Source of the DNA: Cytauxzoon felis
Taxonomy: Eukaryota > Apicomplexa > Aconoidasida > Piroplasmida > Theileriidae
DNA: 26,634 nt
Direction of reading: 5' to 3'
NCBI GenBank assembly: GCA_020283715.1
Contig: JAIQCW010000152.1
Location: forward strand, 1 to 26,634
Under the pieces are notes generated by a model. That model did no database searches and was not told the DNA's origin. It worked only from the letters and a program-made list of their open reading frames with translations. Positions 1,035-25,583 of the stretch are shown here, one piece after another; position 1 is the stretch's first letter, and every line of letters begins with the position of its first letter. A program made the position numbers and the translations under genes.

Positions 1035-1316
1035 CTCCACTCGAGGTCCAATCCACCTCTTTTCGTCCTGCATACAGCTCTCCACCTGAGGTTACATCTA
1101 CTGTTCCACTCGCCGTGGAGGCCTCTTCCAATTACCTATCTCTAAAGAGTAGAGCCACTCCCAGAGATCGTGGCGATGATGAAGGTAAGGATTAGACCTC
1201 AAGTGGAGAACCTGGAAGCGATCTACGGGAGCTGGAAGGGGAAGTAATAGAAGAGCTGTCTGCAAGACGACCTCAGGTGGAACAGCGAGTGGAAGGAGAG
1301 TAGGATTGAACCTCAG
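1035..1316 (+). repeat. Fold-back element copy R1 (A...B1), intergenic
   Basis: Fills most of the 994-1433 gap between the SH3 gene and the PSMG3-like gene. Module A lies at about 1131-1175 and module B1 at about 1213-1248, with outer TCCACCTGAGGT and ACCTCAGGTGG motifs and end blocks CTCGCCGTGGAGGCCTC on the left and GAAGAGCTGTCTGCAAG on the right. Read in the frame used by the exonised copies it stays open through both modules except for one TAG in the spacer, where other copies have TGG. No gene was found in the rest of the gap. Confidence 0.9.
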
Positions 1317-1433
1317 TGTAAAGTGGATATGTAGTGATATATTCTGAGCGTTGTAAGTATTTGTATAGTTTATAATAAATATATATATATATATTCGTAC
1401 TTTAATATTTCTATAAATGTATATAATGTCGCT

Positions 1434-1953
1434 ATGAATGAATCTCCGGTATCTACAGACTTTCCACCGACTGTTAGGGACGAGTTTGTAGTAAGGAACG
1501 ATAAGGGTAAGATACTCATGCCTTGTATTTGTACGCTTATAATAAAATTTTTATAGATGAAGATATTAAATATGAGATTGCAGTCATTAGATTCTCGAAT
1601 TCATGGCAAATGTTTATAACGTCTAGTGGAAATGTATCAACTTGGGTATGTATTCCTCTACACATTTCATAATTTAAAACACAGTTATGTTCATCCGCTG
1701 ATTTATCGCAATTGGATATCTATTCTGTTAAAGTATTACTAGGAGATCGGTATGTATCTCCCTTAATTTATAAATTGATAACCCATTCATCAGCACAAAA
1801 GAGTATCTGCAAGTTTATGCTAGGAATACAATTAAAATACTCTGCGATTTACTCAAAAATAGTAAATCGTACGACAGATTTGATATCACAAGTTTGTCTT
1901 CTATTAATCTTATATCCATCTCTCAGATAATCTCATACTCATCATGGCTCTAG
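1434..1953 (+). CDS. PSMG3/PAC3-like proteasome assembly chaperone
   Basis: Four exons rebuilt from GT...AG sites: 1434-1506, 1557-1645, 1685-1749 and 1794-1953, with introns of 50, 39 and 44 nt. Together they give 128 aa with consistent phase. The protein begins MNESPVSTDFPPTV, and its middle KVLLGDR...EYLQVYARNTIKIL resembles the conserved core of proteasome assembly chaperone 3, about 122 aa in animals, which with its partner helps build the 20S alpha ring in the cytosol. Size and strand order fit, but similarity is distant and rests on memory of the family. The ATG at 1426 hits a stop two codons later, so 1434 is preferred. Repeat R2 begins 38 bp after the stop. Confidence 0.55.
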
Positions 1954-1990
1954 ATATTAAAGTATGTTCAACTAACCAACACAGTTAACA

Positions 1991-2199
1991 CTCTACTCGA
2001 GGTTGCCTCTACCAAAGGTCTTCCACTCGCCGTGGTGGCCTTCTCTATTTACCTCTCCCTCCGCTTCCCTGAGATCAGCTGCGGGTTCCACTCGAGGTCC
2101 AATCCTGACCTCCATCTTCGCCACGATCTCCGGGAGTGGCATTACTCTTTAGAGATAGGTAAATAGAAGAGCTGACGGCAGGATTGGACCTCAGGTGAG
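1991..2199 (-). repeat. Fold-back element copy R2 (B2...A), intergenic
   Basis: On the + strand the order is reversed B2 (about 2045-2085) then reversed A (about 2120-2160), closing with GAAGAGCTGACGGCAGG, so the element reads A...B2 on the minus strand. Outer motifs are CTACTCGAGGT and ACCTCAGGTG. It lies downstream of the PSMG3-like gene. The rest of the 1954-2355 gap holds nothing I can support. Confidence 0.9.
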
Positions 2200-2355
2200 A
2201 TTCAAGGTAGTGGGATAACAAGGTAGAGTATGGATACTAGCCTGGTCGACAAACTCTCGTCTCTATATACGTTCTGACCATGACAATATTATAGGACGAT
2301 GACAGGTGTACTTTCACAGGTATAATGGAGAATATAACGCGTGTGTTAAATAAAT

Positions 2356-2880
2356 TTAATTTTTCTTAATGAGGTATATAATTTTATTAAAAATGCGATT
2401 TATACGTTTCTTTTTCTTCTTTTTTTCATCATCTTGTTCATAATACTTGCTGGATGTAGCGATATTACCAACTTCGTTCTCCTCTTTGATGTCAAATACT
2501 TGTACAGATGAATTTGAAGATGATGTCGCTACATTTCTTACTTCTATTGTATCCTCAGATGTATTTTCACTTTTGATCTTCGGGTAATGATCTGAATTAT
2601 ATCTCTTTGGATCCAAACGTCCCAAAGTCTTCAAGTCCCAGTCATCTACAACAGCTTCCTTCCTCCATAGCTGGTCAAATGTCAAATCATCCGAGTCTTT
2701 ATCTTCAATTGATTGTGGGAATGAATGACTTTTCATCAATTCTATTTTAGTACTATTCTCACTTTTAAATAGAAATGATGATAGGGGTACCTTATGATTA
2801 GGGATAACCCTTGGGACATTTTTAGAAACATCATTAGAGGTACCAAAAATACGATCCAATAATGATGAAATTATAATCAT
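2356..2880 (-). CDS. Hypothetical protein, lysine-rich C-terminus
   Basis: Uninterrupted 174-aa ORF starting at an ATG (2880-2878). The start overlaps the stop of the upstream gene in an ATGA tetranucleotide. The protein starts MIIISSLLDRIFGTSND, has a charged middle with the motif FDQLWRKEAVVDDWDL at about residues 68-83, Ser/Asn-rich stretches, and ends in a poly-Lys block followed by a hydrophobic, basic tail. No domain is recognised. The compact middle is unlike random AT-rich sequence, so I favour a real gene. An alternative is that it belongs with the upstream gene through a splice form I could not define. Confidence 0.5.
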   Translation of the reverse strand: MIIISSLLDRIFGTSNDVSKNVPRVIPNHKVPLSSFLFKSENSTKIELMKSHSFPQSIEDKDSDDLTFDQLWRKEAVVDDWDLKTLGRLDPKRYNSDHYPKIKSENTSEDTIEVRNVATSSSNSSVQVFDIKEENEVGNIATSSKYYEQDDEKKKKKKRINRIFNKIIYLIKKN

Positions 2881-3745
2881 TGTGCTTCTTTTAAATTGAT
2901 TGCGATTTTTATAGATGAAATTATACGTTTACGTTCAAATGATGACATGTTCAAATTAGTATTGACAAAGGGTGATGGGACTATATTAAAAATTAAAATT
3001 AATTTATTTTAGTATAATAAAACTACAAATTACCTTGAAAGTTAGATAAATCTAATTTAATATTACTTTGGAATTTCCAGATGTCATCAATACAGGTTAT
3101 AGATCCAGATGTTATCTCAATATCAAATAAGCTCTTTATAAGGGCTTCTAATTTCTTATTCAACTCTAATTTACACTTTATACAATCATTTTTAACATCT
3201 CTATCTCTTTTTCTACCCTCTTGTTTCATCTTTTGTCTACAATCTTGACAATAAATACGTAAAGTACCAGAGAATCTAGATTTTCCATCAAGGTACATTG
3301 TTCCCAAGTAATCGTATATATCTTGTAATAAATAAAAAGCTCTTTTAATACAAGTACCAGCAGCATAAATTGTTATACCTTTCTTAGTCAACTCTCTAGA
3401 TGTTAAATTTCTCTTTGTCATTGTCATTGTTATAGCCTTTGAATCCTGCATTAAATCCTCACTGGATAAAATTATACTTTTATTACGTAGTTGCCCAGTC
3501 TTAGAGTTCACATTATATTTCGCCAAGTTATCTGCAGATGTCGTTTGTCCAAACTTTGACAACTGCCATCGCAATAAATCAACTGCCCTCTTGTGATAGA
3601 CACATAAAGGAACTTTATTTGTAATGTAAATATCATTATATTCCTTATTAAAAGTTATTATAGGCCTCTTGTATAGCTGAGTTTCACATAAAGTGCCCGG
3701 AGATACTTGTCGATGAGATTCCTCCTGGCTTCCATCAATGTCCAT
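2877..3745 (-). CDS. Possible Alba-like nucleic-acid-binding protein
   Basis: Two exons, 3745-3034 and 2980-2877, joined through a 53-nt intron (CAAG|gtaatt ... aatatag|TCCC), give 271 aa. Residues about 28-58 (ITFNKEYNDIYITNKVPLCV then YHKRAVDLL) and about 124-145 (GITIYAAGTCIKRAFYLLQD) resemble the two halves of an Alba fold, as in Rpp20/Rpp25 of RNase P/MRP or Alba DNA/RNA-binding proteins, separated by an insertion. A later segment has two CxxC pairs (CQDC, CIKC) that could bind zinc. Assignment is tentative and based on pattern only. The C-terminal exon ends in TGA overlapping the next gene's ATG. ATG 3745 follows a sequence with no longer in-frame start in view. Confidence 0.5.
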
Positions 3746-5655: not shown

Positions 5656-5690
5656 CATGAAGATTAAAATAACATCGCTTGGAGATATCT

Positions 5691-6030
5691 TTCCACTCGA
5701 AGTTATAAACTTGTCTTCCACTCGCCGTGGCGGCCTCCACCTGAGGTTGAAGTCCTGCCGTCAGCTCTTCTATTTACTTCCCCCTTCGCTTCCCTGAGAT
5801 CAGCTGCGGGTAGTCCACTTGAGGTCTCCACCTGAAGTTACATCCAACACATCCTTAGAACCATCTTCCATCATTCCCATGATGGATGATCCATCACTAC
5901 CCTTCTCACCGCCACGATCTCTGGGAGTGGCTATACCGTTTACGGGGAGATAATTGGAGGAGCTCTCTGCAAGAGAATGCGAGGTGGTTGTAACCTCAGG
6001 TGGAATGGCAAATGCAATACAGAATTGTAT
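5691..6030 (-). repeat. Fold-back element copy R3 (B2...A) with exon-like spacer
   Basis: Lies between the convergent secreted-protein and WDR18-like genes. It contains reversed B2 (about 5770-5815), a long spacer at 5840-5905 and reversed A (about 5910-5955). The spacer matches, inverted, the spacer of the copy translated inside the gene at 16931-19063 (18137-18203) at all but two or three positions. Its outer right flank, about 5985-6030, matches copy R6. R3 is therefore a mosaic of two different relatives. Confidence 0.9.
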
Positions 6031-6072
6031 GATCCGTGGGGTATATATTTACATTTTAATAAAATTAAAATT

Positions 6073-8267
6073 TTATTTATCAAATTTGAATTTGATGATG
6101 AATTGTTGTTCATCTTGTTGTGTGGTAGTAGTTTTGAGTGGTACGAATGATTGATTATTTGGGAATGGTTTGATGTAAAGGAATAATTTATAGATGTTGT
6201 CTAAATGGGGTTATTTAATTATGGATTTATAAGTACCTAAATTTTGATGATGTGATAAACATATGAGATTATTAACATCCCATACTCTTATACCATCCAT
6301 AGCACTTGAAATTAAATTATAACTCTCTATACATCCATTGACTGGACCTCTAAATATTAAATAATTTTATATATCAACTTCAATATACATATGCCCTTTA
6401 AGATATTTTTTGTCGAGACCATTGAATGATAATATAATAATCACGCCATCATCGCATGGCAAATAATATTTAGTGTTACATTTACTCTATAGAATTAATA
6501 ATTCCCACAACCTCAAATCTTACAATCACAATAGATAGAGGAGTATGATCCAGATATATCGATTCCAATGAATTCACACCACCATAATCCCACAAACGCA
6601 AGTTCCTGTCCTTCGATACCGATACAAATGATACACCATCATTCACGCTCTTTAGTTGAGATACCTATAGAAGAAGAGTGAATATAGTGAGCAATCCACT
6701 TGAGTTTACATCTAGTATAGTTTCCACTCGCCTGCACCTGAGGTTACAATCCAACTCTTCTTTCCACTAGGCGTGGTGCTTCTTCTATTTACTTCCCCTT
6801 CCAGCTCCCGTAGATCGCTTCCATGTGTTCAAGACTACGAATACTTAGTGAGATAGGTCCAGAACTAGGATAACCTTTATCATTATCACCGAGTTTATCT
6901 TTAATTCCATTGAGTTTGGTTACAAGTGCAGACTCAATTGTACTCGCACCTGGATTTATATTGTCATAACCAGTTTCACCAATGGTCGCATCTGTCCATG
7001 TATAATTATCACCACTCCTCGTACGTTTATACCATTTATTATCGGGACTAGGAGCTGCTGCTCCGGTTTTAGATAAACATATCAATAGAGGTTTTTCCAG
7101 ATCAGGGTTATTACTTTCATCCAATGGAAAATATACGTATACACCTCCATTAGTATTAAATTGCTGACCAGTAAGCACACTATCTCCAATTCCATTCGTC
7201 ACCTGACCGTGGATCGTAATCCTGTTAACTCTGTCATTGATATTTGGAATTTTATGTCTATAACCTTTAAAACCAGTGTTACCAGGGCTTATTGCTTGAA
7301 CAGTAATTTTATCGTTAGCATTATTACCAGGGCGCGCAATATATCCAGCGGTGCTAGTTTCTTCAAGCTTAACTTCAAATTTCTCTTTAACCTCACCAAG
7401 TTTCTGTTGAAGTTTAGTAAGTTAGCACCTACAGTGGAATACCTGGAAGCGATCTATGGGAGCTGGAAGGGGAAGTAAATGGAGGAAGCAGTCTGCAAGA
7501 CGACTTCAGGCGGAACGGCGTGTGGAAGGAAAGTGGCCGACATGAATGATCTTCAAACTTCAACTTACGCTTGTAATAGCTGATGAATGCCCGATATAGC
7601 TCTTGTATCTAAATCCCTCCAGAAATAGCCTATAGAATGGCGATGATAAGAAGAGCAGAATACTTCGTGATGTTGACGAGAACCAAGTCACCGGACGATG
7701 ATGAAATTAGCAACTTTGTGTTATCATCGTTGATACTTAAATCTGTCACTTGAGTATAGAATAATTGTTGCGATTCCAATAGATATCCACCATTTAGCTG
7801 TAGAAATAGGATGATGAATCCATCATCTGATGAAATTAACTTCCCAAATCAACAATTTGCCTGTCTTTGTACCGGCAAAGAGCAAATAATCGTCGGTTGA
7901 GAACTCGATTGCTGTAACCTAAAGGTATTGAGGTGATGTAAATTTAGAGAATGTCTGAAGCCGGATGTCACGTTGAGAACTATGGAGACAACTCGGCTTT
8001 AGACATACCAATTCAGGTACGGCAGCTCTATAATTCTGAGATTGTGTAATAAAGATTAGCTTTGCTTTAGTTTGCTGTGCTATGCATATAAATGAGGGTC
8101 TGATCTTGGCTGAGTTATACCCGCAGTTGATATTATCCTATAGTAATTAGTATATATAAATATGAGAAAAATATATAAACATTAAAAATTGTCTCTAGTA
8201 CGTGTATATTTTGGTCTAGAAGTATTATATTGGACCCAGTGACTGCGATTAGGTTATCATTTAGCAT
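6073..8267 (-). CDS. WDR18/Ipi3-like WD40 protein, nine exons
   Basis: Exons 8267-8181, 8137-8009, 7918-7841, 7797-7664, 7629-7569, 6664-6524, 6486-6389, 6349-6237 and 6200-6073 join in phase to 322 aa. WD signatures are visible across junctions: GHSSAITS, SVSKDRNLRLWD, LKGHIGPVNGC and SSAMDGIRVWD. The pattern of blade 3, a short D-x-x-x-x-LWD followed by a strand and then CDDGVIIIL, resembles WDR18/Ipi3, a Rix1-complex subunit in 60S ribosome maturation in the nucleolus. Identity within WD40 proteins is uncertain. Seven introns are 34-90 nt, but the one at 7568-6665 is 904 nt and contains a complete repeat-bounded cassette with a foreign gene fragment. It is divergent from the Rrp9-like gene, 71 bp away, which supports a shared role. 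Confidence 0.7.
6695..6824 (-). repeat. Fold-back half-element R4L (B1 reversed)
   Basis: Left boundary of the intronic cassette. It carries TCCACTTGAG, CACTCGCC, CACCTGAGG, end block CCACTAGGCGTGGTGC, arm CTTCTATTTAC and reversed B1 ending CTTCCATG. Module A is absent. It is inverted relative to 7432-7530. Confidence 0.85.
6789..7425 (-). pseudogene. 3' fragment of a repeat-unit protein family
   Basis: An open frame of about 210 codons without an ATG; its first start-like codon is a GTG at 7202 and it opens just after a TAA near 7425. It encodes the end of one unit (KFEVKLEETSTAGYIARP) and one whole unit: FKGYRH..., RITIHGQ, GGVYVYFPLD, KPLLICL, KWYKR, then GYPSSGPISLS. The same motifs in the same order occur in the last unit of the gene at 19375-21315. 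After GPIS the reading frame runs into repeat R4L, so the last residues HMEAIYGSWKGK are translated reversed B1 sequence read in another frame, and the stop lies in the repeat arm. It sits inside an intron, lacks a start, and is read as a captured fragment. Confidence 0.75.
7432..7530 (+). repeat. Fold-back half-element R4R (B1)
   Basis: Right boundary of the intronic cassette. B1 at about 7443-7480 reads CTGGAAGCGATCTATGGGAG, followed by arm and GCAGTCTGCAAGACGACTTC. It is the inverted partner of 6695-6824, and the pair can fold back around the gene fragment. Confidence 0.85.
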
Positions 8268-9645: not shown

Positions 9646-12209
9646 TCAATCATCAGTAAACAATCTCGATAAAATCGAAATAGATTCCTCATCCAAATGG
9701 AATTCATTCTTTAATCTCTGTTTAAATTTAATCTTCATCTCATCCAATAACATATCCTCAGCATCTGTACAAATTATCGATACATGTCGACGATTTTCCA
9801 ATAATACATGCAATAAAAATACTGCAACTACATTATAACCATTCTTATTCAAACATAATGTTATCTGTAATATTAATATATAACGAACAAACATAAAAAG
9901 TAAATCGTATAATCCACTACAATTTATATTCCCGACTCGACGTTCCACCTGAGGTCCTTTCCTTGTCTTGCAGACGGCCTCCTCTATTTACTTCCCCCTT
10001 CGCTTCCCTGAGATCAGCTCCGGGTAGTACACCTGAGGTATCCACTCGAGGTCCAGTACTAACTACACTCGCATCACTACCTTTAACATCGCCACGATCT
10101 CTGGGAGTGGCATTACCGTTTACGGATAGGTAATTAAAAGAGCTGTCTGCAAGACAAGAGAAGGCAGACATTGGACCTCGGTGGAAGAGCTGACGGCAGG
10201 AAAGACCTCAGGTGGAGAAGAGCTGTCTGCAAGACTAACGGTGGTTGTAACTTCAGGAAGAATGGCGAATATAATACAGAATTGTATTTATTGATATAGA
10301 TAATATAACATACCCTTGCGATATTGAAGGTGGAGAGTAGATTTTTGATATGTGTATCTAATATGACTTTGACTTCATCTGTGATTACATCTATACATGA
10401 TTGATAGATGGGTATTACAGTATCCTATATGATGTTTTGAATTATTAGTTGTATTAAACAAACATCCATTTGCGATTCATCGATATTACCATAAATTAAC
10501 ATATGTTTGGTTCTAGTTGTAATGAAATTATTGAATGTACATAAGAGGATAGAGAATAGACTAAGGCTATGATAAAGTAATTCTTTATTATATGATTCAA
10601 ATTCTAAATAATTATTATTTGATGTTGACATTTTTAATTTTGGATCATGTAAAAATTTCTCTATAACTTTTGGACTTTTATAAATAGATAATGGACATTT
10701 TAATGGTTTTGATTGTTTATTTATATTTTGTTCATTATTTCCTGTAGCTGATGCTACTACAGCAGCTGCATTTGCAAATGGACATTTAGATATTTTTTGT
10801 TTTGATTCTATATCATCTCCATCATTATCCATATTCTCTTTAATTATTACATCATCTACAATTGTTGTATCATTTGAATCTTTTTTATGAAATTCTAATG
10901 TATTCATATCAATATCACCATGTACTCCAATACATTTAGGTATATTTAATACATTGTCATATAATCTCTCCAATGATGAATTATTAGCAGAACGCATTGC
11001 TCTAGGTGTTATAGCACCCGTCTCCATAGGAGAATTCGCTATTATCGATTTTATCGATTTATTATCATCTATACATTGTGGACAACAAAATGAATAATAC
11101 ACAGATCTCTTATATATATTCTTCGTCACCAAATCTATCTTATATGTTGACCTACTCTTCTTCCTATATATCATATATAAATACAGATTAACATCTCAAT
11201 GTATACTCCACTCGTATTACAATCCAACTCTTCTCTTCACATCTCCCTTTGTCTTGCAGACAGCTCTTCTATTTACTTCCCCCTTCGCTTCCCTGAGATC
11301 AGCTACGGGTGTAAAATCTAATCTCGGCGAGATAAGGATAAAGTGATGGAATGTATGTTTGAAGGGATAACTCAATGAATATAAATTGGAATGAAGTGAT
11401 GTTTATTCAATTCAATACATTCATCAAAATCCTTTTCAATGAGATATTGACATTAGAAATTCATCCAATATTCATTGAGTAATCTTCAGTAGTTTCCCCA
11501 GAAATTGAGAATTTCCTTCAAATTTTGAGGTTGAAAATGAAGTTGTGAAATTAGACCTCAAGTGGAGACCTCAAGTTTAACACCTGGAAGCGATCCACGG
11601 GAGCTGGAAGGGGAAGTAAATAGAAGAGCTGACGGCAGGATGAAGGAAAAGTGAATGGAATGTAAAGTTGGATTGGACTTTAGGTGGAAACGTGTGGGAA
11701 GTAGTGATAATAATATTTGATATGGTGACTTACTTTTCGATGAGTAATTCTTCAGGTAGGTGGTTATTGCAGTAGATATATCCGCAAATTCCGTATTTAT
11801 TTCTTTGATTTACTATATCTTGTAGAGTGGTAAGGTCGATGTATGTTGAGAGTAGCTTTTCGAGTGGTTTGCAAGAGTTGCAACAGCGATTGAGGAGTGT
11901 ATCTACACATTTAAATCGGCTTCCATCACTTAACATATTTATAATGTGATCTAAGATAGAGTAGAATATGGACGCATTTGATCTTTTGGGGTATTCGAGA
12001 TTATTGTCATTGTTGTTGGTGTCGTCATGTTTCCCATTTTGAAATATGTCGGCATTTTGATGAACTTGATCAAAATCGTATTGTAGAGACTCATATCTAT
12101 AGATATGAGGTTCATTAGAATCGAATCGGACGCTGCATTTATTGGAAGTAGAGGATTCGTATTCTGTATCGCTTAATGACCTTCCGTCATTGCCGTGGGT
12201 CCCGAGCAT
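9646..12209 (-). CDS. RPAP2/Rtr1-like RNA polymerase II CTD phosphatase
   Basis: Four exons, 12209-11734, 11163-10464, 10424-10314 and 9864-9646, join in phase to 501 aa. The Rtr1/RPAP2 zinc-binding signature is split across intron 1: exon 1 ends with YGICGYIYCNNHLPEELL and exon 2 continues KKSRSTYKIDLVTKNIYKRS then YYSFCCPQCID, supplying the CxxxxC and FCxxxC halves in the family's order. Rtr1/RPAP2 proteins dephosphorylate or bind the Pol II C-terminal domain and aid polymerase import. The rest is low complexity and an Apicomplexa-type C-terminal helical tail. Introns 1 (570 nt) and 3 (449 nt) each contain fold-back repeats; intron 2 (39 nt, donor gtttgt) is normal and its boundaries are the least certain. 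Confidence 0.7.
9934..10287 (-). repeat. Fold-back element copy R6 (B2...A) in RPAP2-like intron 3
   Basis: Occupies most of the 449-nt intron 10313-9865. Reversed B2 is at about 9975-10025 and reversed A at about 10090-10135, with extra end blocks duplicated on the right (GACGGCAGG, ACCTCAGGTGG, GCTGTCTGCAAG). Read on the minus strand (10171-9917) it has an open frame with both modules in the frame used by exonised copies (SSFNYLSVNGNATPRDRGD ... ADLREAKGEVNRG). It shares the rare variant ACCGTTTACGG and the outer right flank with R3. Confidence 0.9.
11206..11310 (-). repeat. Fold-back half-element R7L (B2 reversed) in RPAP2-like intron 1
   Basis: Contains CTTGCAGACAGCTCTTC, the arm and reversed B2, ending AGCTACGGGT. 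It is one boundary of a B...B cassette inside the 570-nt intron 11733-11164. Confidence 0.85.
11311..11552. other. Unidentified cargo between inverted B modules
   Basis: About 240 bp of AT-rich sequence without an ORF worth calling. It contains an imperfect inverted repeat of its own: CTCAATGAATA near 11371 and TATTCATTGAG near 11470, each followed or preceded by a TTGGA/TCCAA extension. It has no similarity that I can see to the family gene fragment carried by the other two cassettes. Confidence 0.5.
11553..11689 (+). repeat. Fold-back half-element R7R (B1) in RPAP2-like intron 1
   Basis: Begins ACCTCAAGTGGAGACCTCAAG, then CTGGAAGCGATCCACGGGAG (B1), the arm AAATAGAAGAGC and the end block TGACGGCAGG. 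It is inverted relative to 11206-11310, although that partner uses variant B2. Confidence 0.85.
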
Positions 12210-16930: not shown

Positions 16931-19063
16931 ATGTATTATTGTTGTAATATGTCGCAAGACTTGACTGATAGAACGGATATATCAAACAGTGATGATTCCG
17001 TGGAAGATACGGATCGAAAGCTAAGTGATCCTAATATTTCCACTAATATAACTCATAATAAATTAAAATCTACTGATAAAAATGATCAGTGGTCATCTAT
17101 TAAAGGATTAGCTAAAAGGATTAGCACATTGGCGGATTTTGGTACATCGGATTTGGCTTGGGGTTTATCATTTGAAATACCTACCAAGAGTGGTAGAAAA
17201 GGTCCAGCATTAGGTATATATTCGGATGTAATTGATCCTGTACAAGGGAATTGTGTGGTACTTCAGACGCCAGATTCGATGGAACGTTATTCGTTAAATG
17301 GTAAACTTATTCAACATCGCAGTTGTTTACCTCATGCTATAACTAAAGTTACATATGGAAATATAGTAGGTATAGGTAGAGTTGTTGTATGTGGTACACA
17401 GGCAGGTACTATACTTATATATTCTTTTTCAAAATTCAAGGAGCTACAGGTTATAAATACTTTTGACATATACAGTACCGCATTATTGAATGAAAAGTGT
17501 GAGAATGATGAATTAAAACTTTCATTTGATGTTAAATTATTGGAGATCAATTCTCTTTCACTTATAAATTGTCTGGATAATTATTCCAAATGGCTGGTAG
17601 TTGGTAATTCATTAGGTGACTTGTTAATATATGAAGTACCATCATTGAAGTTATTAAATTTGATATCATATCCACCTGTAGTTAATTATGTTCCTATAAA
17701 GTATTCATATCATTCATTTGATTATGATGATACAGAGGTTGAATATCACGGGAACACGACACCAAATTTCAATTCTTATTGTGAATATGGACATAATTAT
17801 ATATCATGCATCAATTATTGTAAGAAGACACGTGATTTGTGGGTAGCATATGGTGATGGATCGTTCGCTATATTTGATGTCATTAGCGGACAGTGTAAAA
17901 AATACGTCGCCTACAATAGTAAAGATAATGAATCTAATAATAACTCCACAGATACAGATAAAATTAAATATAATAATAATCTACCCGAAATACCAGAAGA
18001 ACACACATCTCTTCGTCCTCCACTCGAGGTCCAATCCAACTCTGTTCCACTCGACGTTCCACCTGAGGTCGTCCTGCCGTCAGCTTCTTCCAATTACCTA
18101 TCTCCAAAGAGTAGAGCCACTCCCGGAGATCGTGGTGAAGGTAGTGATGGATCATCCATCATGGGAATGATGGAAGATGGTTCTAACGATGTGTTGGATG
18201 TGACCTCAAGTGGAATACCTGAAAGCGATCTACGGGAGCTGGAGGGGGAATTAAATAGAGAAGCTCCATGCAATGGGAAAGAGACTAGAAATGCAACCTC
18301 AACTGTACTACCCGAAAGTGATCTACGGGAACTTGAGGGGGACCTAAATAGAGAAGGCTCCACACCTAGTGACAAAAGTGACGATGTAACCTCGAGTGGA
18401 GAACCCGTAGCTGATCTATGGGAAGCGGAGGGGGAAGTAAATAGAGGAGCTGACGGCAGGAATGGACCTCGGGTGGAGGGCTGTCTGCAAGACGAAGATA
18501 ATGTTGTATTAGAAGATGGGATTGTGAGTGTTAATGATTTGGATAAGTCACCGATTGTATACCCGACTACATTTGATAATATGATGCGTAGATCGATAAC
18601 TACTATACAATTTTCTTATATGAATGATTTAGCGATATTAGTTTATGATGATGTTAGGGTAGATGCATGGGATTTACAAGAGATTATATTTTTGAAATCA
18701 TATCCATCATCTATATTAACTTGTGGTAATTTAATGACATCAATTTATATTTATGAAAGAGAATTTCTTAATTTAAGTTTATTATTTATCGGTACTATGG
18801 ATGGTTCAATTATATCAAGAAGAATTGAAAGATCATTTAATAAAGAAATTTCTTGTACACTTATTTTCAATTTATTAAATACAGCTTTAGATAAAAATGA
18901 ACATAAAAATGATGGTGAAAGTAATCGATCTGATTCAAGTTTTGATTTTAGAGGTGCACCAATCACATGTCTATTCCCATTACTTAATCAAAATGTTATC
19001 TTCGCTGGTAATGCATGTGGTGGACTCGTCTCCGCTATCAATGTACTCAAGAAAATCAAATGA
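16931..19063 (+). CDS. WD-like protein with translated fold-back insertion
   Basis: One exon of 710 codons; translation may begin at 16931 or at the Met at 16949 (MSQDLTDRTD). Residues about 70-350 and 530-710 consist of beta-propeller-like strands (VVVCGTQAGTILIYSFSKF, WLVVGNSLGDLLIYEVPSL, LWVAYGDGSFAIFDVISGQ, LAILVYDDVRVDAWDLQ, LSLLFIGTMDGSIIS, VIFAGNACGGLVSAINVL). Between them, residues about 362-521, an insertion encoded wholly by fold-back repeat carries module A as SSNYLSPKSRATPGDRGEG, the spacer, two B1 modules (ESDLRELEGELNRE and a diverged copy) and one B2 (ADLWEAEGEVNRG). No stop or frameshift occurs in 480 bp. Specific function unknown; it may be a scaffold with a disordered loop. 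Confidence 0.75.
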   Translation: MYYCCNMSQDLTDRTDISNSDDSVEDTDRKLSDPNISTNITHNKLKSTDKNDQWSSIKGLAKRISTLADFGTSDLAWGLSFEIPTKSGRKGPALGIYSDVIDPVQGNCVVLQTPDSMERYSLNGKLIQHRSCLPHAITKVTYGNIVGIGRVVVCGTQAGTILIYSFSKFKELQVINTFDIYSTALLNEKCENDELKLSFDVKLLEINSLSLINCLDNYSKWLVVGNSLGDLLIYEVPSLKLLNLISYPPVVNYVPIKYSYHSFDYDDTEVEYHGNTTPNFNSYCEYGHNYISCINYCKKTRDLWVAYGDGSFAIFDVISGQCKKYVAYNSKDNESNNNSTDTDKIKYNNNLPEIPEEHTSLRPPLEVQSNSVPLDVPPEVVLPSASSNYLSPKSRATPGDRGEGSDGSSIMGMMEDGSNDVLDVTSSGIPESDLRELEGELNREAPCNGKETRNATSTVLPESDLRELEGDLNREGSTPSDKSDDVTSSGEPVADLWEAEGEVNRGADGRNGPRVEGCLQDEDNVVLEDGIVSVNDLDKSPIVYPTTFDNMMRRSITTIQFSYMNDLAILVYDDVRVDAWDLQEIIFLKSYPSSILTCGNLMTSIYIYEREFLNLSLLFIGTMDGSIISRRIERSFNKEISCTLIFNLLNTALDKNEHKNDGESNRSDSSFDFRGAPITCLFPLLNQNVIFAGNACGGLVSAINVLKKIK
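18018..18494 (+). repeat. Fold-back element copy R9 inside an exon (A, B1, B1, B2)
   Basis: The longest copy, lying wholly within the 710-codon gene. It begins TCCACTCGAGGTCCAATCC, includes CTGCCGTCAGC, module A (about 18090-18135), the spacer shared with R3, and three successive B modules separated by TCCACACCTAGTG-type blocks, ending GCTGTCTGCAAGACGA. Its length is compatible with reading straight through in one frame. Confidence 0.9.
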
Positions 19064-19151: not shown

Positions 19152-19266
19152 TTTCCACTAGGCGTTCCACCTGAGGTCTTTCCACTAGGCGTGGGGCCCT
19201 CCCCATTTACCTCACCCTACGCCTACCATTTAGTCGGCTACGGGTATTCCACTTGAGGTACAATCC
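19152..19266 (-). repeat. Fold-back half-element R10L (diverged B reversed)
   Basis: Contains two CACTAGGCGT blocks, TTCCACCTGAGGT, arm CCATTTACC, a diverged reversed B ending GGCTACGGGT and TTCCACTTGAGGT. It is the left boundary of the largest cassette; module A is absent. The remainder of the 19064-19374 gap is AT-rich with no gene. Confidence 0.8.
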
Positions 19267-19374
19267 TACTACCTTCACCTTCCTTCAATCACTTATAACT
19301 CAAGTATAATATTATAATAATTTTATTGAAGTTAGTTAATTTAGTATCATTATTAGTATACTATACTGAATGTA

Positions 19375-21315
19375 GTGACATCACTTCGTGTTTATACATA
19401 TAGTATATGTAATAACTTTAAAGGTTTTAAACATACTGTTACTAATGGGACTATAAATCTTGTTACTATACACAATCAACCGATAGTGGCAACACCACCT
19501 ATTACTAACGCTGATCTTACTGGTAAACAATATGTATTTGTATATTTTGAAAAGAATGATGCAGAGGGTACTCGTGAGAAACCACTATTGATATGTTTAG
19601 CTGTGGCAGATGGAGCCAATGCAGGTAATTTATGGTATTCACGTACGAGGCCTGGTGGTCAAAATACATGGAGCAATGCAAGCAATTTTGGTACTAATGA
19701 TAATCCAAACACTATCAACGGTACATTTGCACAAAAACTCAAAGGAATTAAACAAACACTTGAAACTGGTCGTAAAGATACAGGTTATACTCCATTAGAT
19801 TCCGTTGAAATTGATATAAGTCAGACAGCTGGGCCAGCTACTAGTGATTTCAGTTATTATTTTTCTGGAGGAGAGCAAATTACAGTGTAGAAGAAAGAAG
19901 TTAAAGATGCTGGTGGTCTTGCTAGTAATACATGGGTAGGCTATAGGCATTATAGTAGTGGAACATTTACACCTAATAAAATAGTGCACAGTGACCAGGA
20001 AATGCGTGACTTGTCAACTTCTTTGAATCAGCAAATACAACCCAGAGGAGGTATATATGTTTATTACCAAGGAGATGATATAACGAATCCTAAGGTGATA
20101 TGCATATCTAAAGACAATCCTTCAACTTTTTCTAATAATACGTGGTATAAAGCAGGTAGTGGTCCAACTGATTGGAGTGAAGTCTCTGCTAGCGCTGATA
20201 TTAAAAGTAAAGATCCTAGCGTTACTACTGGAGGAACAACTGCAGTTACTGCAGCAGACCTTGAAGCCGCTGGTGCTCAACCAATTACTATTACCCCCGG
20301 TAACGATTATGTAATTAAATTGGACAAGAGGCCTAAGGAGAAGGGTTCTGAAAAAAAGATTAAATATAGAACGAAGGATAAAGATGTTGAGGTTGAGAAG
20401 ATAGAATACGAAGCCGCAGGAAATAGTAAAGTACCTCAAGGATATATATCATATAAACACACAACTTCTATTAATGGCACAATTATATTTAAACATAATG
20501 GCTTTACTTTAAAAGAAGTTAATGAAACCAATGTCTCTAAAATTTTTGTATATTACAAACAAACTGGAGATGAAAAACATGAATTCCCACTCATTATTTG
20601 TGTTGATACTGGAAGTAATTCCAGGAAATACTATAAGAGAGGAAACACGTGGAGTGTAGACGAAGGTCTAAAGGACGTAAATCCAGAAAATCCTGGTGGT
20701 GGTCTTACTACACTTGAAGAGAAACTTAATGATGTTAAAGCGAAATTTGAAGTTAAATTGGACCGTAATTCTTTATACACAGCACGCCCTGATTCTAGCG
20801 GTGGTCAGATTACCCCTGAGGAAGTAAATGATTCAACTAGTAATCCTAAATTTAAAGGTTTTAAACATCGTGCTTCTGCTGGCACTAGTTTCAAGATAAA
20901 TCGTATAACGATACACAATCATGTGATAAAAGGCATTACTGAAGTAGAAGGAAGTGATGGATTTCAAGTAACTTCCAATAATGGAGGTGTATTTGTATAC
21001 TTTACTGAGACTGATGGCAGTCCTACCGGAAAACGTGAGAAACCACTTTTGATATGTCTATCTCAGGATTATACTAAAAGTAATAATGAATCTCCCGGTA
21101 ACAATGTATGGTATAAGCGGAAGAAGAGTGGCAGCGGCTATATATGGCAGAAGGAAACCACTGATTATGATGGTATAAAACCGGGTGGAGATGGTGGTAC
21201 CACAATTGTACAAGAACTTAAAACCGAACTCGAGAAAATTAGTACTCAAGTTGATTCTGATGATCCAGGTTATCCTAGATCTGGACCTATTTCAATGATC
21301 GTTATCACATTGTAA
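19375..21315 (+). pseudogene. Four-unit family gene with in-frame TAG
   Basis: One reading frame from about 19357 to 21315 interrupted only by TAG at 19888-19890 (ITV-stop-KKEV); homologous sequence continues at once in the same frame. No ATG opens the first part: it begins after a stop at 19354-19356 and its first start-like codon is GTG at 19375. It encodes four diverged units of about 110-150 aa with ordered motifs: a YKHxx/FKGFKHR strand, TIHN, VFVYF or IYVYY, KPLLICL or PKVICI, WYKR and a W then a helical LKGIKQTL-type end. The last unit matches the fragment at 6789-7425. No signal peptide or membrane segment is seen. I do not recognise the family. Best read as a gene fragment or pseudogene carried between inverted B modules; an unseen 5' exon is possible. 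Confidence 0.7.
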
Positions 21316-21334
21316 TGTGTTCATTAACTTCATT

Positions 21335-21455
21335 CACCCGTAGCTGATCTCAGGGAAACGGAGGGGGAAGTAAATAAAAAAGCTGTCTGCAAGACAACCT
21401 CAGGTGGAGGCGAGTGGAAAGGTGGAACAGATGTGGATTTGACCTCTAGTGTAGA
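21335..21455 (+). repeat. Fold-back half-element R10R (B2)
   Basis: Starts 20 bp after the stop of the four-unit gene with CACCCGTAGCTGATCTCAGG (B2), then arm GTAAATAAAAAAGCTGTCTGC, CCTCAGGTGG and GGCGAGTGG. It is inverted relative to 19152-19266 and closes the cassette. The remaining bases to 21536 hold no gene. Confidence 0.85.
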
Positions 21456-21536
21456 GGGGCTTCATGAATGAGGAGAATTCACAACTATAATTACATCGTC
21501 CATAGTTCATCATATAAACATTAATGATATTAAAAT

Positions 21537-22818
21537 TCATTTATTATGTGTGATGTGCATGATTTGCGTTACATTTTGTCTACAGATTGGGCATTTCCCG
21601 CTTCTGAGATTGACTTCTTTTGCGCACGAGAGGCAGACACATAAATGTCGACATGGCATAAGTATAGTATCCGATAATGTAGCGAGACAAATAGAACAAG
21701 CCTTAGATTCTTGATCACATTCTTTATTATTATCCAAGGCTGATGATTTAAGGCCATAAACTTCTTGGATTTGATAGCCATAATCACCTTGACGTATGCG
21801 ATATTTTGTTAAAATTATCCTCCAAATATTATTCCTATCATCATACAACAAGCCAGAAGTGATGTAATATGTGAAAACTCTACTTAGAGACTCTACCTTT
21901 ATCAATATCGGGACATATTTATTATCCTTTGAAAATGAACAAAATTCTAAAGTACATTCCAACATCGAACTCAATACATCCGCATCCATACGATATTCCA
22001 AATCCTTACCAACACATAACTTATAGACATCAGTCGAAAACTTTGGAGCAGAGAACCTATGATATCATTTTATCAGTTCAAACGAGATGTACACAACCCG
22101 AGGTTACAACCTTGTCTTCCACTCACCTCCACTTAGGTAACCACCGCCGTTTGTCTTGCAGACGGCTCTTCCATTTACCTATCTCTAAAGAGTAAAGCCA
22201 CTCCCATAGATCGTGGCAGAAGTATACTCATTGGACCTCAAGTGGAACCCGAGAGCGATCTACGGGAGCTTGAGGGGGAAGTAAATAGAAGAGGCGCCAC
22301 GCCTAGTGGAAAAGAGAGCAAGATTGGACTTCAGGTGGATCTGCAGGACAAGGAGCGGTGTTGTTATCTTCAGTGTAGGAATCTCATGTATTGTATTCTC
22401 TCAGTTAAACTTACATTGGAATCCCTCCATTGAGTCCTTTGTGGAATTGTCCAAAGTGGAATGAGACTTCATGTTGTTCGTAAGCATCGTATTTGAAAAT
22501 GATTATAAACTGATCTCCAACCTGGATGAATAGAAGATTAATTGATTATTAAATCTTACAATTTCAATAGCTAGAGATTCTCTCTTGAGTATAAAGGTAG
22601 ATTTTTTACTTGCGATGCCGTTTATTGCAATATTTTGCACTTGTAGAGGCTTAGATGTGATCAAATGCTCCTCCTGTATAACAAGTATGTAAATGATTGA
22701 AGATAAATATACAAACAGGTATAATATTGGTAGTTGAGTATATAATTTGCTGAGGTGTAACGTGATGATTTTCAGTAGTATTGGTACATGTAGTACGACA
22801 TGATAGAGATTGACCCAT
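21537..22818 (-). CDS. MGRN1/RNF157-type RING E3 ligase
   Basis: Exons 22818-22717, 22673-22560, 22521-22415 and 22056-21537 join in phase to 280 aa. The C-terminal RING reads CSICLATLSDTILMPCRHLC then VCLSCAKEVNLRSGKCPICR, a C3HC4 domain with the LPCRHLCxCxxCA spacing typical of the MGRN1/RNF157/LOG2 family. Upstream, KKSTFILKRESLAIEI followed by FIIIFKYDAYEQHEVSFHFG and FSAPKFSTDVYKL match the family's DAR2-type beta region. If translation starts at the second of two adjacent ATGs the protein begins MGQSLSC, an N-myristoylation and palmitoylation motif, as in plant LOG2, suggesting a membrane-bound ligase. The third intron, 22414-22057 (358 nt), is filled by repeat R11. Confidence 0.8.
22099..22342 (+). 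repeat. Fold-back element copy R11 (A...B1) in RING-ligase intron
   Basis: Lies in intron 22414-22057, antisense to the gene. CTTGCAGACGGCTCTTCC, module A (about 22171-22217), a short spacer, ACCTCAAGTGGAACC, B1 (about 22250-22285), then CCACGCCTAGTGG and CTTCAGGTGG. Module B is open in the coding frame as SDLRELEGEVNRRGATPSGK. Confidence 0.9.
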
Positions 22819-23036
22819 CATGTAAAACTATACAACTGAAAAAATAAAATAAATTACATTATTAAACTATTTAAAAAATTAAATTAAACAGTGATAAATT
22901 CATTTTTTGTGAAATTGGGTTACCCTGAGGTACAAACATCTACATTAAGTTCGAAGTTAGCTTCATCGCATATCCATACCTAACACTCACCGATTAACAT
23001 CTAATCTCCGACTAATCTTCCATTGCATGGAGCTTC

Positions 23037-23255
23037 TCCACCTGAGGTCGTCTTGCAGACAGCTCTTCTAATTACCTATCCCTCCAGCTCCCGTAGATCG
23101 CTTCCAGGTATTCCACTTGAGGTCCAATCACTACACTTCCGCCACGATCTCTGGGAGTGGCTTTACTCTTTAGAGATAGGTAATTAGAAGAGCCGCCACG
23201 GCGAGTGGAGAAGAGTTGGATTTGACCTCAGGTGGAGAGGAGCTCTCTGCAAGGA
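23037..23255 (-). repeat. Fold-back element copy R12 (B1...A), intergenic
   Basis: Sits in the 22822-23332 gap. It opens with TCCACCTGAGGTCGTCTTGC and AGACAGCTCTTCTAATTACC, then reversed B1, TTCCACTTGAGGT, a short spacer and reversed A, closing with GAAGAGCCGCCACGGCGAGTGG and ACCTCAGGTGG. The left arm is a hybrid: ATTACCTATCC, typical of module A, runs directly into CTCCAGCTCCC of module B. No gene is seen elsewhere in the gap. Confidence 0.9.
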
Positions 23256-23332
23256 AAGGTTAGGTGGATAATTAGAAGTTGGTTGGACTTAGGTCGATAC
23301 ATAATGCGGTAAGAACAGAGATATGATCCATC

Positions 23333-23947
23333 TTAGGCTTTTGTAATTTTAAGTTCTCCGATATCATATACGTATAATGTTTTAATTGATTCGTCTACTT
23401 TGCATAGGTGTAAGAATGCTAGCATAGTGCATATAACTCTTGAGATTGACGATTGTGATTTTGATGGGTCATATTGTTGGTATATGCATACTGTATAATC
23501 ATCTGGTTTCACTATATGTACATTTTTGAAGACGAGTTTGGACTCTGTTGCTTCGACTGTATATTCAGGATCTAGAACACTAGCTGTGAAGGTTAAATCA
23601 TCCTTCAGAGTATCTTTACTGCATTTATTACCACCTTTTACTACCATCAAACCAATGCACTGATTAAAATTCTTACCCTCCAATTCTATATCTCCAACAC
23701 CATGACCGTCACTATTTACCTTCATGAGGTGAATATGAACCGCTGTTACATCTGGCGCCGCACATGGAAAATATCCCTCTCTACAGTCAAAATTATTTAC
23801 ATCAGAAAACACCGAACATGTTTTTTCTTTATCCCCATTATTAATACATTGAGTTTTACCCCCCAAAAAATTTTCACATGAAGCATCACAATCTATGGGG
23901 CATGTGAGGTTCAGTGATTTTGGCCCCCCCCTTGAGGGGGCCATCAA
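23333..23947 (-). CDS. Cys-rich C-terminal part of a secreted protein
   Basis: Open frame of about 204 codons. The first half is cysteine-rich (TCPIDCDASCENF, TQCINN, KTCSVF, FDCREGYFPC); the second half alternates beta strands with further Cys (NFNQCIGLMVV, NKCSKDTL, DYTVCIYQQYD, RVICTMLAFLHLC), suggesting a disulphide-bonded extracellular domain. No family is recognised. It lacks its own signal peptide; the apparent start is a TTG-ATG at the edge of a frame break. The upstream acidic ORF belongs to the same locus and would be continuous but for one base in the A8 or G8 run at 23920-23960 and a TAG at 24114-24116. It is annotated separately because the sequence as given does not join them. 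Confidence 0.55.
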   Translation of the reverse strand: MMAPSRGGPKSLNLTCPIDCDASCENFLGGKTQCINNGDKEKTCSVFSDVNNFDCREGYFPCAAPDVTAVHIHLMKVNSDGHGVGDIELEGKNFNQCIGLMVVKGGNKCSKDTLKDDLTFTASVLDPEYTVEATESKLVFKNVHIVKPDDYTVCIYQQYDPSKSQSSISRVICTMLAFLHLCKVDESIKTLYVYDIGELKITKA

Positions 23948-24113
23948 CGTTTTTTTTCTCGGATGATGATGCTTGTTCTTCTTCTGATGTTTTGCTCTCT
24001 ACTTTATCATCTTCTGTATTTGCGATTGGCTCCTTTAAAGTCTCGTGCTGATGCACATCGGCATCTGTCTTTGCAGAGTCTAGCTGCTCTTCTTCCGATG
24101 TTTTCTGTCCTTC

Positions 24114-25234
24114 CTATACCTTATAATCATCTTCTAATGGTTTGTTTCTTACCTCTAACTTATGTTTATCTTTGCGGTCCCCATCTTCTGAATTATCCAC
24201 CTTCTCCGGTTCTTTGTGATTTTCTTGTTTCTTATCATCCGTTTTTACATTATTATCGTCATCTTTAGAGTTGTTTTCTTCCCCTTTTCCTTTTTCCTCG
24301 TCCTTATCCTTGTCATTTCTATCTGGGGACGCAGCACCAGATGTAGGGGAATCTTTATTTGCATCATCTTTAGTTTCACCTTTATCATCACTTGAAGATG
24401 CAGTCTTGTCATCAGTTTCACCTGATGTCGTACTATCGTTGCCACTAGCCGTGGTGGCCTCTTTATTTACTTTTCCCTTCGCTTCCGTGAGATCAGCTTC
24501 GGGTTTCTTATCCTTTCCTTCCTCATTATCATCTTTTCCATCGCCAGAACTATTGTCCTTATCATCAGAATTCTTCTCATCCTTTCCTCCCTTATCTTCT
24601 CCATCAGTATTATCGCTCGTACGGTCACTTTCTCCACTCGAGGTCCTGCCGTCAGCTTCTTTATTTACCTCACCCTTATCTTCACTGACATCAGCTGCGG
24701 GTTTTCCACCTGAAGTTTTATCCCCTTCCTTCTCGCCTTCGCCACGGTCTCCGGGAGCGTCTTTACCCTTTAGAGATAGGTAATTAGAAGAGCTCTCTGC
24801 AGTATCTTTCTTGGTATCATGTTTATGGTCATCTTCATGTTCATGGTGATTTTCATGGTCATCATCATAATCATCATGTTCATCATGGCCATGTGCAACA
24901 GACTCTGTGGTATGTGAAGCAGTCTCATGAGTTTCATCTGCTTTATCTGTACCTTCCTGGTCATGTTTCTTGATACTTACAGTCTTTTGTTCTATTTGTA
25001 TGGATGAAAAAGACAATCTTAACCATGATCAATTACCTGAATCGACGTGACGACCTCCGTCATCACTTGGAGCCACATCCAGAAAAGATGACTGAACCTA
25101 TAAAATAAATAAATTTAATATAAAATTTATATTAAGCTTACATTTACTATACGATTTTCATTAATAGACAATGATGGCTTAGTCAAGAGTATAGAGGATA
25201 AGAAAATTATAAAGACACTACTATACCCTAACAT
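24114..25234 (-). CDS. Secreted acidic His/Asp-rich protein with translated repeat
   Basis: An exon from 25234 starts MLGYSSVFIIFLSSILLTKP, a strong signal peptide, and ends near 25144 at AAT|gtaagc; a second short exon lies at about 25099-25040; the main exon runs from about 25017 to 24114. The second junction is not solved: no GT...AG choice that I found keeps phase neatly. The main exon encodes a His/Asp/Glu cluster (HDEHDDYDDDHENHHEHEDD), likely metal-binding or simply acidic, then a long Lys/Asp/Ser-rich disordered region. Module A is translated as SSSNYLSLKGKDAPGDRGEG and B2-like modules as ADVSEDKGEVNKEADGR and ADLTEAKGKVNKEA. The same frame stays open past the TAG at 24114-24116 as far as about 23890 and repeats KTSEEEQ twice, so the TAG may lie in a tiny intron or be a mutation. 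Confidence 0.6.
24441..24505 (-). repeat. Exonic B2-like module (R13a)
   Basis: Reversed CACTAGCCGTGGTGGCCTC block, arm TTTATTTAC and B2 within the acidic protein's exon, translated as EADLTEAKGKVNKEATTASG. No module A accompanies it directly. Confidence 0.8.
24632..24802 (-). repeat. Exonic fold-back element (R13b, A...B2)
   Basis: Contains TCCACTCGAGGTCCTGCCG, arm, reversed diverged B2, TTCCACCTGAAGT, a spacer and reversed A ending GAAGAGCTCTCTGC. It is fully open in the host frame. The B module is more diverged than elsewhere (SEDKGEVNKE), which suggests an older insertion. Confidence 0.85.
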
Positions 25235-25379
25235 TATAGTGTTTTACCTAAATTAGATTAATTTTATTCATCTAAAACACATTTTTATCCATCTAATATC
25301 CTCAATCAATCCCTCATTCACCAATCATCATGTGCACTTGTTGCACCAATCTTACATAAATACATTAAACCTTGTCTAC

Positions 25380-25583
25380 TTCATCTGAGGTCCATCCTGC
25401 CATCAGCTTCCTCTATTTACTTCCCCCTCCGCTTCCCTGAGATCAGCTACGGGTATTCCACTTGAGGTTACATCCTCACTACTTTAGCCACGATCCCCGG
25501 GAGTGACTTTACCCTTTAGGGATAGGTAATTGGAAGAGGCCTCAACGACAAGTGGAAGATAAGGTTATAACCTCAGATGAAGA
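25380..25583 (-). repeat. Fold-back element copy R14 (B2...A), intergenic
   Basis: Lies in the gap 25235-25700 between the acidic-protein gene and the membrane-protein gene. Order: TCATCTGAGGTCC, CTGCCATCAGCTTCCTC, arm, reversed B2, TTCCACTTGAGGT, spacer, reversed A, GAAGAGGCCTC and ACCTCAGATG. Nothing else is seen in this gap. Confidence 0.9.

Follow-up and report, generated by a model that had tools for sequence, protein, structure and literature searches.

A dispersed family of paired-hairpin elements, probably mobile and non-autonomous, in the genome of Cytauxzoon felis

Short non-coding elements, each built of two facing half-units that mostly end in unlike hairpins, appear to be scattered by the thousand through the Cytauxzoon felis genome. 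They probably represent a non-autonomous, lineage-specific family of mobile DNA of the foldback or MITE-like kind. The evidence comes from the anatomy of the half-units, the rule by which these are paired, the insertions in open reading frames (ORFs) and the interiors that duplicate other loci.

Anatomy and abundance of the elements

The starting point was a first-pass annotation of a 26,634-nt stretch (the window; GC range 27-42%), which described a repeat family with inverted arms and two internal modules, A and B. Profile models for A, B1 and B2 detected 276 modules in 235,676 bases (2.7% of the genome), 266 of them scoring above 30 bits; the top score in reversed sequence was only 5.9 bits. 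The 8.6-Mb genome contains 3,580+3,565 (7,145) exact copies of the shared loop, TCCCNNAGATC, as opposed to 6+8 (14) for the reversed controls. The family is thus real and extends well outside the window. The exact arm, GCTCTTCTATTTAC, is present 318+326 times, against 0+0 for its reversed controls. The density first estimated, about one copy per 2 kb, is upheld. On contig C4 of the same genome, 51 elements lie in 120 kb and, with 70-nt margins included, cover about 14% of the sequence; extrapolation from this contig gives roughly 3,500 elements in the whole genome.

A typical half-unit comprises outer P words, a small hairpin (4-bp stem; loop TGC or TCGCC-like), a pyrimidine arm ending in ATTTAC or AATTAC, and a main hairpin (A, B1 or B2). 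The annotation had treated A and B as separate modules; all of A, B1 and B2 turn out to be forms of a single hairpin type that share an 11-nt loop, TCCCnnAGATC, near-invariant across half-units. The stems under this loop vary in their letters between modules and keep their pairing. In 150 B1 and B2 modules, 96.4% of main-hairpin cells are paired, as opposed to 69.3% in shuffles, and four of the six stem pairs are altered on both sides. For six cores of the window, the folds predicted as DNA were uneven (z from -5.0 to +0.3). Cores measure about 130-370 nt overall, with a median of 135 nt for A/B elements (87 elements). The elements resemble the TIR type in being short, non-coding and present in many copies, with ends inverted as convergent pairs of halves, and the foldback type in having inverted repeats made of subrepeats (P and hairpin words, modules) around a variable interior.

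Elements in the window

A motif map of the window yielded 15 clusters, which were grouped by hand into 13 loci, in agreement with the about 13 counted originally. Profile matches amounted to 10 A, 9 B1 and 9 B2 modules and one C interior (see below). The loci are listed here; intron and spacer contexts were read from the sequence by eye, without transcripts.

1035..1328, plus strand: Element 1; outer words, A 1122-1176, B2' 1210-1257; read as spacer between genes
1990..2200, minus strand: Element 2; B1 2039-2086, P word 2087-2098, A' 2118-2172; read as spacer
5690..6004, minus strand: Element 3; B1 5764-5811, two P words, A' 5909-5963; read as spacer
6695..7540, no strand assigned: long-interior element; B2 6779-6826 and B2' 7441-7489 flank a gene-family piece (ORF 6789-7421, minus strand); inside an apparent intron of a minus-strand gene
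9931..10258, minus strand: Element 5; B1 9978-10025, P words, A' 10089-10143, outer words; apparent intron
11206..11690, no strand assigned: B-C-B' element; B1 11263-11310, C 11309-11567, B2' 11582-11629; apparent intron
13571..13810, plus strand: Element 7; decayed outer words, A 13636-13690, P', B2' 13716-13763; apparent intron of a TCP-1/cpn60 gene
18018..18493, plus strand: exonic element; A 18083-18138, B2' 18217, B2' 18310, B1' 18403-18450, all in frame in a 710-aa ORF (16931-19063)
19154..21460, no strand assigned: probable long-interior element; B1-like left half at about 19177-19245 (decayed, below the profile cut-off, found by eye and repeat search), B1' 21336-21383; encloses gene-family ORFs 19357-21315
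22105..22350, plus strand: Element 10; A 22165-22219, P', B2' 22247-22294; apparent intron of a RING-finger gene
23034..23255, minus strand: Element 11; Q hairpin, B2 23062-23109, P, A' 23139-23193, S hairpin; read as spacer
24437..24800, minus strand: exonic element(s); B1 24457-24504, B1 24655-24702, A' 24739-24793; in frame in an acidic ORF (24114-25028), A to B' on the coding strand
25384..25557, minus strand: Element 13; D hairpin, B1 25407-25454, P, A' 25485-25539; read as spacer

Copies thus map to spacers, apparent introns and ORFs, on both strands, as had been described.

Pairing of the half-units and their interiors

Ordinary copies had been said to pair an A in one half with a B in the other, and no copy to hold two A modules. 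Among 120 convergent neighbours with interiors of up to 700 nt (235,676 bases), 101 were A/B and none was A/A, where random assortment would give about 20.3 A/A pairs. The remaining 19 were B/B, a regular second class that had been overlooked; 14 of them carry a conserved 276-nt interior, C, and C lay between B halves in all 14 complete cases. One A/A pair encloses a 2.7-kb interior (C4 48737-51557). At window positions 6781-7486, B...B' surrounds a piece of a gene family, and another such pair probably lies at about 19154-21460. Neighbouring lone halves were convergent in 15 cases, divergent in 2 and tandem in 1; 9 of the 15 convergent pairs have interiors of 198 nt or less, the longer ones being 6 convergent, 2 divergent and 1 tandem.

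Interiors can duplicate other loci. At C4 48.8 kb, a segment beginning 7 nt past the A half is identical at 332 of 335 positions to C4 22.1-22.4 kb, a region with no module within 1.1 kb. Other interiors are pieces of gene families: window 7022-7269 is 73% like C4 49163-49404, and window 7071-7376 is 67% like C4 53907-54209. A protein search with the enclosed gene family, which needs shared 5-residue words and similar length, gave no match at E <=0.01 among 6,422 candidates.

So strict an A/B rule speaks for an enzyme whose action depends on two unlike ends. Such an enzyme, acting in trans, would recognise the half-units and require A with B, or else a B at each end, in most cases with interior C between them. 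The interior would be a free cargo slot, filled by a short spacer, by C or by pieces of host gene families, the latter perhaps captured during repair. Pairing of A with B, and not of A with A, would offer a testable rule for how an enzyme reads DNA ends. One may go further and propose a new kind of mobile element, with ends recognised as folded hairpins, a fixed loop, exchangeable stem letters, arms free to mismatch and half-units reassorting under the two-unlike-ends rule, that has come to occupy about one seventh of a contig in an apicomplexan without a known DDE transposon behind it; we regard this as a tentative and rather doubtful extension.

Copies inside ORFs and genomic placement

Seventeen of 108 copies examined span an ORF, as judged by a frame open for 240 nt past both ends, with hexamer scores playing no part in the selection; the second exonic copy of the window, open for 236 nt, falls narrowly short. 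ORF-spanning copies encode recognisably the same two peptides, and all but one (16/17) read A to B' on the coding strand. Since module A has one open frame and its reverse has stops in all three, this bias is expected from purging: frame-breaking copies would be lost after landing, leaving exonic survivors in the sole open orientation and frame. At the one site compared, the exonic insert is missing from the orthologues of T. equi and B. bovis, which supports an insertion there after divergence from both. Of the two marks of insertion that the annotation had named, absence from orthologous loci was found at this site; the other, a target-site duplication, did not show up in 65 elements whichever fixed distance from the outermost P word was taken, element boundaries being uncertain, nor did shared flank words (longest common word, 65 elements) show an excess. 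The exonic insert gave nothing at E <=10 in a protein search of 3,934 candidates, which needs shared 5-residue words and similar length. One host ORF carries a FAINT domain, and one protein had two named matches, the nearer being T. equi at 46%; both point to a Theileria-like piroplasm. Hexamer gene scoring labelled the elements themselves as coding and was for that reason left out of the assignment of context classes.

Spacing of the elements on C4 (CV 0.83) fits random placement with a 350-nt exclusion (55% of 2,000 simulations gave this value or a lower one), and the idea of regular spacing as a functional landmark was rejected for this contig. The lower CV of a stretch of C8 (0.41) permits no inference because that stretch was picked for its arm matches. 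A further stretch, L032, runs for 10 kb without any copy.

Intact cores within decaying flanks

Outer words degrade with distance while cores remain intact. Of 240 flanks, 66% show an intact P word at 20-40 nt and 1.7% at 110-140 nt, around modules that nearly all keep the high profile scores given above. Loop sites are off consensus in 0.7-2.1% of cases, against 3.4% private change in interior C. On both sides G becomes scarce in comparison with C as the element is approached, with a skew of about -0.4 that fades by 300 nt (108 elements). Decay of outer words around intact cores, with little change in the loops, could also reflect a host function: the core would be a hairpin site used, for example, in chromatin, replication or RNA processing, formerly mobile and now held by selection. 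The flank skew would suit such a site too. We consider this unlikely, given that the window copies, by reading, are not bound to one gene feature, that C4 spacing is compatible with random placement, that L032 has its 10 empty kb, and that copies sit in frame within ORFs.

Independence of the two arms

The inverted arms had been described as shared by the loci. Identical positions between the two arms of an element total 942, compared with 933.6 +/- 7.7 after permutation (93 elements). Arms within an element therefore match each other no better than arms taken across elements, where terminal inverted repeats of a foldback transposon would be expected, by our own criterion, to match better. Long arms lacking covariation inside the element do not establish the long fold-back as the maintained feature. 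The numbers of P words on the left and right sides are likewise uncorrelated (r 0.11, equalled or exceeded in 12% of permutations; 106 elements). The nearest distinct copies are about 92% identical over 177-199 nt (best 40 pairs; 2.7% of the genome), so that no fresh insertion was caught; matches of 100% identity, at first candidates for young copies, proved to be overlapping flanks of adjacent elements.

Uncoupled arms and P-word counts, tandem near-identical half-units at C4 63983 and the failure to find target-site duplications in 65 elements would all agree with spread by hairpin-driven template switching, gene conversion or unequal exchange among palindromic copies, with no enzyme of the family's own. 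A sharp A/B rule and thousands of unrelated sites would, however, be hard to obtain by exchange alone, and we think this route improbable. The annotation had left the family as either non-autonomous or spread by recombination; its dispersed, non-coding, non-autonomous appearance is upheld, and either a transposase or recombination may have spread it. For enzyme-driven mobility, the reading we prefer, we count the dispersal on both strands and the random-like spacing on C4, besides the pairing rule, the duplicated interiors, the exonic copies and the kept stem pairing; against it count the target-site duplication, MULE or DDE_3 transposase, fresh copy and linkage of the halves in arm letters or P-word number, all sought and not found, together with the intact cores in decaying flanks and the uneven predicted folds.

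Searches for an enzyme and for related sequences

MULE and DDE_3 transposases were not found, their positive controls giving a signal; the search also covered Helitrons, for which the control was silent. The genome has a single RVT_1 locus, which reads as telomerase-like. A search of the window against Rfam gave 0 matches (E <=1), and no described piroplasm family of such elements was met in a limited literature search, consistent with the annotation's remark that no named piroplasm element of this build was known to it. Viral contigs had 0 matches to the element and prokaryote genomes 1 (a Gemmatimonadetes bin; about 0.2 expected by chance in 257 Gb), and a bacterial or viral origin was rejected on these counts.

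Conserved loops on swapped stems resemble the conservation of an RNA, as would be expected from RNA-mediated copying of a SINE-like or structured transcript. We hold this to be very unlikely: G-T mismatches in stems do not exceed A-C mismatches (21 vs 25), on which basis an RNA-strand signature was rejected; interior C covaries in only 2 of 29 pairs (14 copies), leaving its candidacy as a structured RNA unsupported; Rfam has no match in the window; and the one RVT_1 locus is telomerase-like. That every copy creates an intron, like the inverted-repeat introners spread through the genes of Amoebophrya, also an alveolate parasite (excerpted text of PMC7789003), is hardly tenable even with several window copies in apparent introns and a possible splice donor, GTAAAT, read in the reverse of the B arm, because those introners define introns, whereas the present elements also lie in spacers and in frame in ORFs, and the splice sites read in the window are tens of nt beyond the element ends, the introns outreaching the element.

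Relation to known systems

FB and Galileo are foldback transposons that we take to be among the closest known systems. The present elements differ from foldback transposons in having ends made of a few small hairpins strung together, in obeying an A/B rule, in their cores of about 130-370 nt, and in that neither a target-site duplication nor an autonomous copy was found. Tetris, a foldback element of Drosophila virilis, shares with them modular inverted ends, internal subrepeats, a variable interior and an apparently non-autonomous nature, according to the excerpted text of PMC4079207. MITEs are similarly short and non-coding, with inverted ends and thousands of copies near or in genes; here, in contrast, a defined terminal sequence and a target-site duplication were not found, and the halves reassort. 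Rickettsia palindromic elements, as excerpted in PMC10969869, are palindromes of about 150 bp that also insert in frame in unrelated ORFs, but these are bacterial, whereas the present family carries two module types and spans an ORF in the 17 of 108 copies noted above.

In the portion available of a survey of 64 Apicomplexa, no Class II elements are reported and MITE candidates are dismissed as likely false positives (PMC9141347); some 3,500 elements, the extrapolated total, would challenge that absence for at least one apicomplexan lineage. Five DNA elements are listed for Babesia sp. Xinjiang in the part of PMC5081931 consulted, which gives its genome as 8.4 Mb with 43.9% GC, unlike the 27-42% of the window. 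The elements would also supply a ready set of insertion markers.

A dispersed family of modules

The motif map of the window (bases 1-26634 of contig C90) contains 15 clusters of pyrimidine arms, outer words (P) and modules, which we grouped into 13 loci, in line with the approximately 13 recognized in the first-pass annotation. Profile models built on the window copies were iterated over a 235,676-base sample, in which the window was joined by three loci of 3 kb and twenty stretches of 10 kb. Twelve of these stretches are contiguous on contig C4, where an arm search had already given five loci; the other eight, on C8 and C9, were picked for previously seen arms. The search returned 276 modules (112 A, 105 B1 and 59 B2), 266 of them scoring above 30 bits, against a best score of 5.9 bits in the reversed-sequence control. 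Throughout the genome (8,623,106 bases in 181 contigs), the exact arm occurs 318+326 times and its reversed pattern 0+0 times; for the loop TCCCNNAGATC, the counts are 3,580+3,565 and, reversed, 6+8. Together with the motif map and the profiles, these counts establish the dispersed family as real. The 120 kb of C4 hold 51 elements (pairs of facing halves), including seven lone halves. The resulting density, one per 2,353 bases, bears out the figure of one copy per 2 kb or so read from the window and extrapolates to some 3,660 elements in the genome. Modules alone make up 5.9% of C4, a share that rises to 13.6% when 70 nt are added at either end. Two extra stretches outside the sample yielded six elements plus a lone B2 half in one case and no element in the other. 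Element-free stretches of about 10 kb, where some four elements are expected, occur at C56:60001-70000 and C4 13.1-23.6 kb.

Small hairpins

All three modules bear the loop TCCCnnAGATC on a stem.

Main stems of the modules
A: GCCAC/GTGGC
B1: CCC + GCT / AGC + GGG
B2: CCT + AGC / GCT + AGG

In the 150 B1 and B2 modules, 96.4% of cells of the six stem pairs are paired, versus 69.3% in 500 shuffles (maximum 72.7%); pairing drops to 35% or less when the register is slid, and four of the six pairs have changed on both sides. B2 alone (95.6 vs 86.1% shuffled) and the small A hairpin (97.6 vs 75.5%; 109 modules) also pair above the shuffled level. Covariation signal is absent from B1 alone (96.9 vs 96.6%) and from the main A stem (94.1 vs 94.2%). 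Since the stem changes mark subfamilies, they represent a few events rather than hundreds. A hairpin with 4 bp or more adjoins the arm in 169 of 270 flanks, versus 22 in shuffled flanks and 50 at a distance of 126-150 nt, and a TGC loop is found on three stems (GTCT/AGAC, CTCT/AGAG and CCAT/ATGG). In contrast, long arms within one element match no better than chance pairs (93 elements), and the predicted DNA folds of six cores from the window (halves plus spacer) are uneven (z = -2.96, -5.03, -1.51, +0.33, -1.03 and -2.46). Judged by their pairing, therefore, the small hairpins are maintained, but the data give no such sign for the long fold-back with inverted arms initially proposed.

Pairing of unlike halves

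Among convergent neighbours with interiors of up to 700 nt, counting only modules above 25 bits, 101 pairs are A/B, 19 are B/B and none is A/A (n = 120), when about 20.3 A/A pairs would be expected (P about 2e-10). Thus, the exclusion of A/A noted in the first-pass annotation stands at this range, as does its rule of one A and one B per ordinary copy, with the B/B pairs as a regular second class; a single A/A pair was seen, around an interior of 2.7 kb. The spacer within A/B cores is short (the core has a median of 135 nt; 87 elements) and carries on its B side a P word, which matches at 11 or 12 of 12 positions in 76 of 90 spacers. A second class has the structure B-P-C-P'-B' (primes denote reverse orientation), C being a conserved 276-nt interior whose copies are 69-87% alike; C is flanked by B/B halves in each of the 14 complete pairs that carry it, and the fifteenth copy is truncated by the stretch end. 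Neighbouring lone halves are convergent in 15 cases, divergent in two and tandem in one, and their interiors range from 132 to 2,713 nt; among the convergent ones, nine measure 198 nt or less, just past the chaining cut-off, and only six are long. Half-units in tandem, about 93-102 nt apart (window 18203-18461; C4 63983-64131), suggest growth by local duplication.

Several transposases bring together two unlike ends. An enzyme of this type would fit the strictness of the A/B rule as well as the free interior and the scattered insertion. The target-site duplications sought in 65 elements, whose outer boundaries are uncertain, were not found, and searches for MULE and DDE_3 transposases identified no gene. 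An RVT_1 search gave a single reverse-transcriptase locus (C56:73693-74436), lying in a frame of 1010 aa that, by reading, resembles telomerase reverse transcriptase. In one survey, no Class II elements are recorded in Apicomplexa, and LINE-like elements are listed for T. equi and some Babesia and not for C. felis, T. parva, T. annulata or T. orientalis (PMC9141347); a report on Babesia sp. Xinjiang counts 5 DNA elements among 581 interspersed repeats (PMC5081931). Among the open-licence papers listed in literature searches, we saw no earlier description of the hairpin family and, as first surmised, no named piroplasm element of such architecture, though the family may be described in a paper on the species.

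Enclosed sequences

Some interiors duplicate sequence from other loci. One case is at C4 48.8 kb, where 335 nt that begin 7 nt inward of an A half match C4 22.1-22.4 kb at 332/335 positions; the module closest to the latter is 1.2 kb off. Other interiors carry pieces of a gene family whose multiple copies, present in the window, C4 and C2, contain repeated domains (EKPLLICL...WYxR). Searches with this family gave neither a Pfam match above cut-off nor a homologue at E up to 0.01.

Gene-family stretches
Window 6789-7421, minus strand: piece as interior
Window 19357-21315, plus strand: piece as probable interior
C4 20768-22379: gene-family stretch
C4 49163-51434: gene-family stretch
C4 53286-54209: gene-family stretch

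Facing halves enclose three of these stretches, both of those in the window and one at C4 48.7-51.6 kb; those at C4 20.8-22.4 and 53.3-54.2 kb lie outside.

Copies within genes

By sequence reading, apparent introns hold five of the window copies, exons two and spacers (convergent or tandem) six, in keeping with the three settings originally listed. In the sample, 17 of 108 chained elements are spanned by a single frame that stays open for 240 nt or more past both element ends. On the coding strand, 16 of these, spread over 13 ORFs, read from A to B', and the remaining one does not; the 16 recognisably share the predicted peptides ..NYLSLKSRATPGDRGE.. and ..VADLREAEGEVNREA... The A consensus has one open frame forward and stops in all three frames backward, so that an orientation bias is expected if frame-breaking copies are purged; the bias alone is no evidence for peptide function. 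Comparison with orthologous loci showed one exonic window copy to be absent from T. equi and B. bovis. An ORF for a NOG1-like GTPase (L023:5392-6744, minus strand) has two in-frame elements between P-loop and switch region, which are separated by about 305 residues versus four in the solved relative 2e87. The GTRWG donor is absent from this interval; looser GTAAAT words are present inside the elements, so that splicing may still occur. In a CAF1B-like ORF (stretch L026), an element lies between two propeller pieces.

Decay of copies

Intact outer P words fall off with distance in 240 flanks, from 66% at 20-40 nt to 15% at 40-60, 13% at 60-80, 7% at 80-110 and 1.7% at 110-140 nt, with none beyond. 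Loop positions depart from consensus in 0.7-2.1% of modules and other module positions in 11-13%; private changes in C amount to 3.4% per copy (14 copies). This pattern is compatible with fairly young copies or with some constraint on the core, which it does not separate. In 108 elements, a C-rich, G-poor skew toward the element extends to about 300 nt. The GC-skew flip seen over 0-300 nt is strong and symmetric (about -0.4 toward the element in either flank) and outreaches the recognisable words.
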